Shown here piece after piece: positions 34,689 to 63,091 of a stretch of 64,000 nucleotides of DNA (positions within the stretch are counted from its first letter, which is position 1; every line of letters begins with the position of its first letter). The DNA comes from an uncultured Opitutaceae bacterium. Lineage in GTDB: Bacteria > Verrucomicrobiota > Verrucomicrobiia > Opitutales > Opitutaceae. Below the pieces are notes generated by a model. It worked only from the letters and a program-made list of their open reading frames with translations, made no database searches and was not told the DNA's origin. Position numbers and translations under genes: made by a program. The stretch lies in assembly GCA_903890485.1 (NCBI GenBank), contig CAITBM010000034.1:1-64000 (forward strand), in the 5' to 3' direction.

Positions 34689-35651
34689 ATGTCCTCAGGT
34701 CCCGCTTGGTCCCAAAAACTCCGCGATGAAATCGGCAAGGCCGTGATCGGCCAAGAAGCCACCGTCGAGCGTCTCCTTGTCGCTCTCCTGGCCGGAGGCC
34801 ACGTTCTTTTGGAAGGCATGCCGGGATTGGCCAAAACCCTTTTGGTCAAATCGTTAGGAGCTTCCCTTGGGGTGCAATTTGAGCGCATCCAGTTCACTCC
34901 CGACCTGCTCCCGAGCGACGTCGTCGGCACCATGGTCTTCCAGCCCAAGACCGGGGAATTTAGCCCGCACCGCGGCCCCGTCTTCGCAAACCTGCTCCTT
35001 GCCGACGAGATCAACCGGGCCCCGGCCAAGGTCCAGAGCGCCCTCCTGGAGGCCATGCAGGAGAAACAGGTGACGATCGGCGGCCAGACGCACCCTCTGC
35101 CCAGCCCCTTTTTCGTAATGGCGACCCAGAATCCTATCGAGCAAGAGGGAACCTATCCCTTGCCGGAAGCGCAGACCGACCGTTTCCTGTTCAAGCTCCT
35201 GGTCGCCTACCCGAGCGCCTCGGAAGAGGCGTCGATGATGCAGCGCTGGGGGCAGATCACCCAGCAGCCGACGGTTTCGGCGGTTTCCAGCGGCCCTGAA
35301 CTGCTCTCCCTGAGGGCCGAGGTCGACCGGGTCCATGTTTCGCCGGTGGTCCAAAATTACATCCTGACACTGGTCCGGGCGACGCGGGCGTTGGCGGAAA
35401 ACCCGGACCCCTCGGCGAGGCGCCTAAATTTCGGGGCGTCGCCCCGGGCCTCACTCGCCCTTTACCAAGCGGGCCGCGCCCTGGCCTGGCTGCGGGGATT
35501 GGATTACCTCTCCCCCTCCCTGGTGCAAGAGCTCGCCCCCGACGTGCTCCGCCACCGCCTTGGCCTGACCTACGAGGCCGAGGCCCAGGAGATCACCTCC
35601 GACACCGTGATCTCACAGGTCGTCTCCACGACTCCGGTGCCACCCGTTTGA
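34689..35651 (+). CDS. moxR: MoxR-family AAA+ ATPase
   Basis: AAA+ chaperone-like ATPase, thought to activate partner VWA-domain proteins. The 320-residue protein has Walker A GMPGLAKTLL, Walker B LLADEINRAPAKVQSALLEA and sensor region ATQNPIEQEGTYPLPEAQTD. It heads the operon moxR-DUF58-batA-batB/C-batD/E, in which most junctions overlap, the classic Bat (Bacteroides aerotolerance) order. Its stop overlaps the next start by one base (TGATG). The 95-base upstream gap shows no strong promoter to my eye. Confidence 0.93.
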   Translation: MSSGPAWSQKLRDEIGKAVIGQEATVERLLVALLAGGHVLLEGMPGLAKTLLVKSLGASLGVQFERIQFTPDLLPSDVVGTMVFQPKTGEFSPHRGPVFANLLLADEINRAPAKVQSALLEAMQEKQVTIGGQTHPLPSPFFVMATQNPIEQEGTYPLPEAQTDRFLFKLLVAYPSASEEASMMQRWGQITQQPTVSAVSSGPELLSLRAEVDRVHVSPVVQNYILTLVRATRALAENPDPSARRLNFGASPRASLALYQAGRALAWLRGLDYLSPSLVQELAPDVLRHRLGLTYEAEAQEITSDTVISQVVSTTPVPPV

Positions 35652-45863: not shown

Positions 45864-46238
45864 CTAGAGCTCGGTGTATTTGGCGGATCGCCCCTTGGAC
45901 TTCTCGACGGGGTACTTGCGACCATTCTGCGCGATCTTCGCCTCGATGCTCGCCGCCACGTCGAGCCCGGTCGCATTGGCGAACTCAAGGGCGTAGATCA
46001 CCACGTCGGCCAGCTCCTCTGCGATCTTGGCCCGCTTCGCGGGATCCTTGGCCACGGTGCGCGACTCCTCGGGCGACGCCCAGAGGAAGTGCTCCATCAG
46101 CTCCGCCGCCTCGGCCGCCAGCGCCATGCTCAGGTTCTTGGGCGCGTGGAACTGCTCCCATTCGCGTTCCCGGACGAAGGCCATGACGCGGTCCCTGAGC
46201 TCGGATACTGTGGTTGTGGAGTCGGTTAAGGAGGCCAT
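45864..46238 (-). CDS. MazG-like nucleotide pyrophosphohydrolase
   Basis: Short (124-residue) all-alpha NTP pyrophosphohydrolase, possibly clearing non-canonical dNTPs such as dCTP or damaged forms. It has the metal-binding helices LSMALAAEAAELMEHFLW and the EELADVVIYALEFANATGLD motif, giving the EXXE...EXXD layout. The ATG at 46236-46238 matches the length of the family; longer readings are rejected. It is divergent from hsp20, across a 331-base gap. Confidence 0.85.
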   Translation of the reverse strand: MASLTDSTTTVSELRDRVMAFVREREWEQFHAPKNLSMALAAEAAELMEHFLWASPEESRTVAKDPAKRAKIAEELADVVIYALEFANATGLDVAASIEAKIAQNGRKYPVEKSKGRSAKYTEL

Positions 46239-46569
46239 GCGCACGAGCCTTGGCGCACGCGGCCCCGAGGGCAATTGCGGAGGGCCCCGGGGCATTAATT
46301 TGAAAATGACTTGGCACGGGGCCTGCAGTATGCATGGTGTACCACCGTTCCAATGGCCCAGACCCACAAACATCACTCCCGCCTCGCCGGCACTTCGTTT
46401 ACGAAGGCCTGCGGTTTTGGCTGCGCCGTGATGCGTCTGGTCGCCATTTCCAATTGGAACAAAACGGCCAGCGCGGGCTTCAAGGCCTAAACCCTCCCAC
46501 CCGGAAGACGTTTAGAAACCCAGAAGCCCGGAGGCCAAAAGCCCCCAGGAGGCACCTGCCTTTCCCACC
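46239..46569. other. 331-base divergent gap with a sigma-54 promoter
   Basis: The gap between the MazG-like gene and hsp20 contains the AT-rich stretch around 46290-46310 and the sigma-54 element at 46311-46327. No gene is supported: a 79-codon frame starting at 46334 begins before the likely transcription start and overlaps hsp20. The rest of the hsp20 leader, about 230 bases, shows nothing I can name. Confidence 0.6.
46311..46327 (+). promoter_or_regulatory. Sigma-54 (-24/-12) promoter upstream of hsp20
   Basis: TTGGCACGGGGCCTGCA matches the RpoN consensus TTGGCACG-N4-TTGCA at 16 of the 17 positions counted by eye, with exact GG-to-GC spacing. The start point should be near 46338, giving a leader of about 230 bases to hsp20. 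The only gene it could drive on this strand is hsp20, and no bEBP activator gene is in the window. This would be unusual control for a small heat-shock protein. Confidence 0.75.
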
Positions 46570-46971
46570 ATGAACACGAGACAACACACCACGAGCACAT
46601 CCAGCCGTCATCGCAGCGCTTACAGGGCGTCCAACGCCATGTTCCGCCAGCCGAGCTACGACTGCCGTGAGCTCCCTGACGCCGTCACCATCGTCGTCTA
46701 CGTACCCGGTGTGGGTGCCTCGGGCGTGGAGATCGAGGCGTCAGGACCCGACCTAGTCATCACCGCGCACAAGACCCGTTTTGTACGCGTGAACTTCCAG
46801 GCCCTGAACCTCGAGGGATCGCAGCGCGACTACCGCCTGAGGCTGCGGCTCGGCACCGGCTTCGATTACTCGAAGCTCGAGGCCGGGATCGACGACGGCG
46901 TTCTCACCCTGACCGTGCCGAAGCTCCAGGAGTGCCTGGCTCCGGCCCTACGCCTGGGACGGGTCGCCTAG
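46570..46971 (+). CDS. Hsp20 / alpha-crystallin small heat-shock protein
   Basis: ATP-independent chaperone that holds unfolding proteins. The 133-residue product has a short N-terminal arm (about 1-33, Thr/Ser/His-rich). The alpha-crystallin domain follows with CRELPDAVTIVVYVPGVG, an unusual VEIEASGPDLVITAHKTRF, then FDYSKLEAGIDDGVLTLTVP, the conserved A-x-x-x-n-GVL motif. A C-terminal IXI motif is not obvious. It is preceded by a strong sigma-54 promoter. Confidence 0.9.
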   Translation: MNTRQHTTSTSSRHRSAYRASNAMFRQPSYDCRELPDAVTIVVYVPGVGASGVEIEASGPDLVITAHKTRFVRVNFQALNLEGSQRDYRLRLRLGTGFDYSKLEAGIDDGVLTLTVPKLQECLAPALRLGRVA

Positions 46972-47019: not shown

Positions 47020-47252
47020 CGGCCTGCGGGCGCCGGGCCGGCGCTCAAGAATTTTCAAATTTTTTGGGTACATTTTTTGTCACGCCGTGTCGTAGAAGTT
47101 ACCATGACACCGTACGCGCCCACCTTTCGCGCGAGACCGCTGACCGCCGACAACGCGACAGCTCGCGTAACCCCCCGTGAAGACGCAAGTTGGACCAGGC
47201 ACATCTTCAGGCCTCCCCCGCTTGCCGTCGAACCCATCCGTCCCGAACTCCA

Positions 47253-55294: not shown

Positions 55295-57858
<2,564 letters not shown>

Positions 57859-62800: not shown

Positions 62801-63091
62801 TTATTCCACCACTTTCGGGACCACGAACATGTTGTCGCGCTTCTCCGGGGCGTTGCGAAGGGCGTCCTCGACCGAGAGCCCGGCCTCTGGCACGTCCTCT
62901 GCCCACACGTTGACGACCGGGAAGGCGTGGGCGGTGGGCTCCACGCCCTCGACGTTCACCTCGTTGAGCTGCGCTATGTACGTGAGGACATCCCCCAGCT
63001 GGGAGGCGAAACGGGCCTTCTCCTCCTCGGTCAGGTTGATCCGGGCAAGGTTGGCCACGTGGTCCAGATTGAAGTCTTCGGGCTTGGGCAC
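62801..63091 (-). CDS. gatC: Asp-tRNA(Asn)/Glu-tRNA(Gln) amidotransferase subunit C
   Basis: Small stabilising subunit of the GatCAB complex. The 96-residue protein has DFNLDHVANLARINLTEEEK, then LGDVLTYIAQLNEVNVEGVE with TAHAFPVVNVWAEDVPE and a C-terminal NMFVVPKVVE, all family-typical. The start is GTG at 63089-63091. It lies 6 bases after pheT and 20 bases before gatA, so pheT-gatC-gatA-gatB is probably one transcript. Confidence 0.95.
   Translation of the reverse strand: MPKPEDFNLDHVANLARINLTEEEKARFASQLGDVLTYIAQLNEVNVEGVEPTAHAFPVVNVWAEDVPEAGLSVEDALRNAPEKRDNMFVVPKVVE

Follow-up and report, generated by a model that had tools for sequence, protein, structure and literature searches.

A predicted sigma-54 promoter and a conserved structured leader containing a small open reading frame upstream of hsp20 in Opitutaceae

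The stretch of DNA analysed here (the window; 64,000 nucleotides) is part of contig C34 in the 3.1 Mb genome of an uncultured Opitutaceae bacterium and contains a small heat-shock gene, hsp20, preceded by a sigma-54-type promoter element and a leader with a small open reading frame (ORF). The features of the locus are as follows.

45864-46238, minus strand: divergent MazG-like gene (PF12643, E 1.4e-18), given for context only
46311-46327, plus strand: sigma-54-type -24/-12 promoter element, TTGGC ... TGCA (direct reading, consensus score, conservation)
46338, plus strand: predicted transcription start, placed by sigma-54 geometry about 12 bases past the -12 GC
46351-46448, plus strand: 5' domain of the leader RNA, helices P1-P3 (covariation; 89.3 bits with the covariance model R1, which was built with the window sequence among others; leader fold z -3.5)
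46353-46490, plus strand: conserved small ORF of 45 codons plus stop, MAQTHKHHSRLAGTSFTKACGFGCAVMRLVAISNWNKTASAGFKA (comparison across loci)
46467-46554, plus strand: 3' domain of the leader RNA, helices P4-P7 (weaker covariation; agreeing single folds)
46570-46971, plus strand: hsp20 / alpha-crystallin small heat-shock gene, 133 aa (PF00011, E 5.8e-10)

The ATG that we chose as start codon of the MazG-like gene lies 72 bases upstream of the -24 element. The initial annotation had proposed -24/-12 elements with exact spacing upstream of hsp20, and this is borne out by direct reading of the window. TTGGCACGGGGCCTGCA is located at 46311-46327 on the plus strand, with GG at 46313-46314 followed by ten bases and then GC at 46325-46326, which is the sigma-54 spacing GG-N10-GC. 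It shares 11 of 12 letters with TGGCACG-N4-TTGCW, which was used for scoring and which we take to be the sigma-54 consensus, the sole mismatch being CTGCA for TTGCA. At sigma-54 promoters transcription starts about 12 bases after the -12 GC. The distance from the -12 place to the ATG of the small ORF is 27 bases in the window, between 24 and 31 bases in 29 of the 30 loci measured and 37 bases in the remaining one.

Taken by itself, the site is compatible with a chance match. With one mismatch allowed, TGGCACN6TGCA was found twice in the window against 2.69 occurrences expected, and the genome-wide count of TGGCACN6TGC (19 matches, versus 73 for the reversed pattern) showed no excess over background. 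Filtering these 19 sites by ORF overlap proved useless, as all of them, including the hsp20 and glutamine synthetase sites, overlap an ORF of at least 100 aa. The window contains a single further TGGCACN6TGC match, at 62888-62902; it falls within ORFs (451 and 506 aa) and probably arose by chance. The hsp20 site stands above chance because it is conserved at the same place in relatives, and this conservation rules out a chance match as the origin of the motif.

Some match to the window Hsp20 was found in 57 of the 61 family genomes and none in the other four. The best loci from 47 family genomes, together with L032, the locus of a related Opitutaceae MAG whose Hsp20 is 89% identical, made up a subfamily set of 48 loci, which excluded G036, whose match lies 28 bases short of a contig end, and nine genomes that gave nothing but weak matches (G008, G010, G012, G013, G019, G032, G033, G056 and G057). 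Twenty other hsp20 genes served as controls. The best upstream score was at least 10 of 12 in 33 of the 48 subfamily loci, in 1 of the 20 controls and in 1.7% of 1360 shuffles, and at least 9 of 12 in 40 of 48, 2 of 20 and 9.8%, respectively; the 48 loci share ancestry, so that the counts do not represent independent events. Among the controls, L108 (score 10) may itself be a divergent subfamily member, and L103 (G016:C30) is not independent because it comes second in a tandem of two hsp20 genes preceded by a single copy of this leader and promoter. A search of the hsp20 upstream regions of relatives, named as a check in the initial annotation, gave TGGC-N9-GC in place in 41 of the 48 subfamily loci versus 4 of the 20 other hsp20 genes, the -24/-12 element being missing in L028, L084, L087, L090, L091, L098 and L099. 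When the loci were anchored on TTGGC alone, 37 of 39 loci had GC at the spacing expected for sigma-54 (37 of 41 if L090 and L091, left out for having no GC at that spacing, are counted); this set is also without L012, L088, L092, L093 and L099, in which the anchor fell on another TTGGC or TGGC, and without L084 and L087, which had no anchor. The letters at the -12 place were T in 90%, G in 97% and C in 95% of the 39 loci, and the first T of TTGCA was replaced by C in 85% of them, as it is in the window.

In a comparison of the window with L032, 221 of the 232 leader bases (46338-46569) are identical, and the leader is more conserved than hsp20 itself (358 of 399), whereas the 70 bases ahead of the promoter are far less so (41 of 71). 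Strong matches to the promoter, the ORF and the RNA fold are limited to one Opitutaceae hsp20 subfamily, which was not found outside the family in 113 class genomes, other families matching at 24-36% identity. The outgroup hsp20 genes were set aside as a test of promoter age, since sigma-54-like sites were at background level in the group as a whole (scores of at least 10 in 1 of 19 and of at least 9 in 3 of 19). Three outgroup loci, L161 (score 9) and L162 (score 10), both of one genus, and L173 (score 8), which were picked by eye because the site lies a short way upstream of the gene or of an hsp20 gene preceding it, have credible-looking sigma-54-like sites and no leader; their hsp20 genes are of another type (MKLIRY... 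or MKLIQY...) and belong to other families of the class.

The initial annotation had named an absent rpoN as a result that would speak against its reading and had suggested a search for RpoN activators. The rpoN gene is intact, coding for 500 aa with the activator-interacting, core-binding and DNA-binding domains (PF00309, PF04963 and PF04552) and scoring above the TIGR02395 cut-off. As rpoN is present in 60 of the 61 family genomes, its co-distribution with the promoter is uninformative as a test of the sigma-54 link. Six PF00158 matches were found in the genome, three of which are full NtrC-type response regulators (E 1.2e-67 or better) that all carry GSFTGA, a variant of the GAFTGA-type loop, and two of these lie within a few kb of a histidine kinase gene. 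The other three matches are weak (E 2.5e-7 to 3e-4) and are taken for other AAA+ proteins, because the same search gives matches in all 14 control genomes. No activator gene was found near hsp20, the only PF00158 match on its contig being a weak one at 34989-35144 (E 3e-4). Near 56885-57379 of G000:C22 (L127), an NtrC-type response regulator gene is followed by a HAMP histidine kinase gene, and this couple is a candidate activator pair for the hsp20 promoter. Glutamine synthetase genes are typical sigma-54 targets, and TGGCACGCTTGGTGC, a TGGCACN6TGC site on the minus strand (G000:C8:2127-2141; L037 1501-1515), lies 112 bases ahead of a gene with PF00120 and PF03951 matches above cut-offs, for which the best NCBIfam model is the glutamine synthetase GlnII, below its cut-off. 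TGGCACGCTTGGTGC is likely a sigma-54 target site, which would speak for a functional sigma-54 system in the genome. The reading of a sigma-54 promoter ahead of hsp20 is very probably correct.

The promoter and the leader RNA can each be lost without the other. L084 and L087, from one genus, have kept the leader and lost both GG and GC, whereas L089, L092, L096 and L100 have kept the promoter (scores 11, 10, 11 and 9) in the absence of an R1 match; the motif is therefore separate from the RNA fold. In three genomes (G018, G022 and G044) the hsp20 match contains a stop. Two of these loci, L098 (G018) and L090 (G022), have lost the -12 box and have a small ORF that is interrupted or without ATG, and they look as if the whole unit decays together, but the promoter is intact in the third, L093 (G044).

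In 20 of 42 loci (L012, L084, L087, L092, L093 and L099 left out), TTGGC is preceded at a distance of 35-40 bases by a box of 16 bases, GTCACGCAATCTTCAC or a variant differing from it at no more than 5 positions, compared with 1.5% of shuffles, a comparison that is not a blind test as the box was derived from the same loci. Its GTCAC/TTCAC halves are repeated at 11 bases and its distance is nearly fixed (e.g. in L005, L014 and L019). With at most 1 mismatch, the box gave 5 matches, all at the hsp20 locus, in 5 of the 14 genomes searched, and a Pho-type regulon box was rejected on this result; it may be the site of a dedicated regulator. Such a box, together with the A+T-rich patch ahead of TTGGC, would also suit a different reading, in which an activator bound at the box drives a transcript of sigma-70 type, the motif is the conserved 5' end of this transcript and no sigma-54 promoter exists. 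The window, however, has no match to the box better than 7 mismatches at that position, and TATAAT-like matches (at least 4 of 6) are only mildly enriched, in 22 of 39 loci against 33% in shuffles. A sigma-70-type scan gave a single weak hit, past the end of hsp20 (47077-47105), and an ordinary sigma-70 promoter was rejected on these two results. The invariant positions of the motif are, moreover, presumably those contacted by sigma-54, and the independent loss of promoter and RNA does not fit a conserved transcript end. We hold the sigma-70-type reading to be highly improbable and retain the sigma-54 promoter.

The initial annotation had described a 230-base leader followed by hsp20. The length held (46338-46569, with hsp20 from 46570). 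The leader also contains a conserved small ORF embedded in structured RNA, so that hsp20 is not the first ORF encountered downstream of the promoter. Of the 31 loci that have an ORF behind the promoter, 30 can be aligned. In this 30-locus set, for which L027 was left out, starts were hand-picked and the frame was chosen for being open, the ORF is 43-47 aa long, the ATG and stop are aligned in all loci (TAA in 23, TGA in 5 and TAG in 2) and none of the 30 has a stop in frame 0, versus 28 and 17 with stops in the other two frames. All 12 distinct gaps inside the ORF are multiples of three, compared with 6 of 25 just after it, and the same holds for 699 of 803 pairwise gaps inside versus 211 of 1476 after. 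This gap pattern makes it unlikely that the ORF is an accident.

Purifying selection on the peptide overall was not seen in these loci, the pN/pS ratio being 0.99 in the ORF frame and 0.84 and 0.86 in the other frames. The substitution score was no better in the ORF frame (0.39 versus 0.43 in the next frame), and third codon positions were no more variable than the others (0.226 versus 0.262 and 0.258). Since pN/pS is close to 1 and the substitution score favours no frame, an ordinary protein gene is not supported. Split by pairing, pN/pS was 0.78 for unpaired codons, a mild signal, and 1.24 for paired ones; the nearest pair, the window and L032, differs by 8 changes in the ORF, 4 synonymous and 4 other, too few to count. 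A profile of the ORF matched 41 of the 61 family genomes with one copy each (weakest E 0.009). Among 177 order genomes it gave 14 matches, 12 of them in family members, and the weak matches in G188 and G094 are probably due to chance. No useful match to the product was found in Pfam, NCBIfam or PDB. By eye, L089 and L092, which have no R1 match, still contain an ORF that is comparable in size and at its C-terminus. The predicted Shine-Dalgarno pairing at the ORF start was weaker than -5 kcal/mol in 29 of 31 loci and stronger in L014 and in the window (-5.4 kcal/mol).

The single-sequence fold of the window leader is 3.5 standard deviations below that of shuffles. RNAalifold on the whole alignment returned only 13 pairs, and the structure was then named from agreeing single folds before counting. 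In the 5' domain (L027 and L028 left out, as in R1), 13 double-sided pair changes were counted against 5.2 +- 1.6 in shuffles, none of 500 being as high, and 4-9 in slid versions, and covariation was 0.140 versus 0.085 in shuffles. The proportion of cells paired was 81.5% versus 77.2% in shuffled and 25-48% in slid versions, a measure that naming from single folds favours more than it does covariation. The whole leader had 22 double-sided pair changes versus 14.4 in shuffles, with one slid version reaching 23, and a covariation of 0.129 versus 0.094, further pair types not being in excess. Covariation of the 3' domain was weak, 8 of 500 shuffles being as high, and its double-sided pair changes were matched in 102 of 500. 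The start codon of the ORF is paired by helix P1 and its stop codon is enclosed by P4 and P5, and the leader is, from these comparisons, kept both as an open frame and as an RNA fold. R1 found 16 family genomes in a search of 288 phylum genomes; weak matches outside the family, in three genomes (E 0.005-0.009), and a weak additional one in G003 are probably due to chance. Rfam gave nothing at gathering score in seven relatives and no thermometer family match, and its ctRNA_pGA1 and IRES_mnt matches, downstream of hsp20 and far below gathering scores, were taken as chance.

Two further readings of the leader have to be weighed. The leader could be an RNA thermometer or a site of self-repression by Hsp20, with the ORF incidental. 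ROSE and fourU are RNA thermometers, structured 5' leaders of hsp20 genes, and the conserved and strong structure of the leader would fit such a role, as would the binding of IbpA to its own 5' UTR (PMC10474464), another known control of hsp20 mRNA. Predicted accessibility, however, changes little with heat. The median unpaired probability of the ORF AUG was 0.12-0.28 from 15 to 55 C in 31 loci, the AUG being predicted to be still mostly paired at 55 C in most of them, and that of the hsp20 start region was 0.57, 0.61, 0.64, 0.69 and 0.78 at 15, 25, 37, 45 and 55 C, respectively. Simple heat melting was set aside on these predictions. The lack of an Rfam thermometer match also speaks against this reading, and gaps in multiples of three are not needed by an untranslated RNA. 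We consider it quite unlikely, and a translated leader is favoured over a plain thermometer with moderate confidence, because little melting and, at most starts, weak Shine-Dalgarno pairing are predicted; for hsp20, pairing stronger than -5 kcal/mol within 18 bases of the ATG was found in 4 of 31 loci (L023, L025, L026 and L030).

According to the other reading, the locus is a sigma-54 operon whose first gene codes for a real small basic protein acting with or beside Hsp20, the RNA folds being secondary. The kept frame, start and stop, the narrow length range, the single copy per genome with one weak match among the 41 family genomes and the similar ORF of L089 and L092 without R1 match are all in its favour. 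Against it, pN/pS is no lower than in the other frames, synonymous sites are equally constrained, the databases hold no relative worth naming and strong RNA covariation lies within the ORF itself. We consider this reading unlikely.

The reading that we prefer, and consider reasonably likely, is that of a sigma-54 operon whose translated, structured leader would tune Hsp20. Transcription would start near 46338, carried out by sigma-54 RNA polymerase once an NtrC-type enhancer-binding protein has activated it; this step of the scheme is well supported by the conserved element, although sigma-54 transcription from it is predicted from sequence. The transcript would open about 15 bases ahead of the 45-codon ORF, run through the folded leader and continue into hsp20. 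The ORF is presumably translated, and the likeliest role of the leader would be regulatory, ribosomes entering or leaving the small frame against the folded RNA setting the amount of Hsp20. Sigma-54 promoters need an activator, and a chaperone gene under one would therefore respond to a specific signal; this chaperone appears to be induced by an environmental signal, its amount then being adjusted through the RNA. More tentatively, the locus could represent a family-wide Opitutaceae hsp20 operon in which signal sensing falls to sigma-54 and its activator and Hsp20 synthesis is gated by a novel type of leader that combines in one sequence a translated frame of about 45 codons with a multi-helix RNA, neither ORF nor RNA belonging to any family of the libraries searched. 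A conserved structured RNA that doubles as an open frame is an unusual combination and would offer a way into the study of stress control in Verrucomicrobiota. In open-licence papers, nothing was found on sigma54 and Hsp20 in Verrucomicrobia, on Opitutaceae Hsp20 or on RNA thermometers of Verrucomicrobia, and this leader was not described among the best 8 of 29 and the best 8 of 591 literature matches.

Compared with known systems, the leader resembles ROSE and fourU thermometers and IbpA autorepression in being a structured 5' leader ahead of hsp20, but it is longer, contains a conserved in-frame ORF, shows little predicted melting and has no Rfam match. It shares with leader-peptide or upstream-ORF attenuators a short ORF over conserved helices and a stop codon inside a hairpin, ORF and helices both being conserved; it differs from them in that no run of regulatory codons was seen in the ORF, no terminator-like site was found between the ORF and hsp20 and no alternative fold is shown. 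The promoter itself is like other sigma-54 -24/-12 systems in its GG-N10-GC spacing, its TTGGCAC and TGC boxes and the presence of rpoN and response-regulator activators in the genome, whereas its target is a small heat-shock gene and neither an enhancer site in the window nor an adjacent activator was found. The initial annotation regarded sigma-54 control of a small heat-shock gene as unusual; the promoter is upheld by its conservation, by rpoN and by the activators, but the arrangement is not without precedent, as cases have been reported for ibpB and for a chaperone cluster. In a 2025 survey, a cluster comprising COG0071 (IbpA) and other chaperones was described as enriched among the predicted sigma-54 targets of Planctomycetota and Bacteroidota (PMC12316311); the relevant passages of that survey name these phyla, not Opitutia, and mention neither a leader RNA nor a small ORF. 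E. coli ibpB, also a small heat-shock gene, is cited as having a sigma-54 promoter (PMC4370416, PMC4316790), but this has been disputed, as ChIP mapping gave a background signal only (PMC4591121). That proposed promoter lies upstream of ibpB within the sigma-32 ibpAB operon, whereas the promoter described here is kept across the family and thus offers a cleaner case than the disputed one of E. coli.
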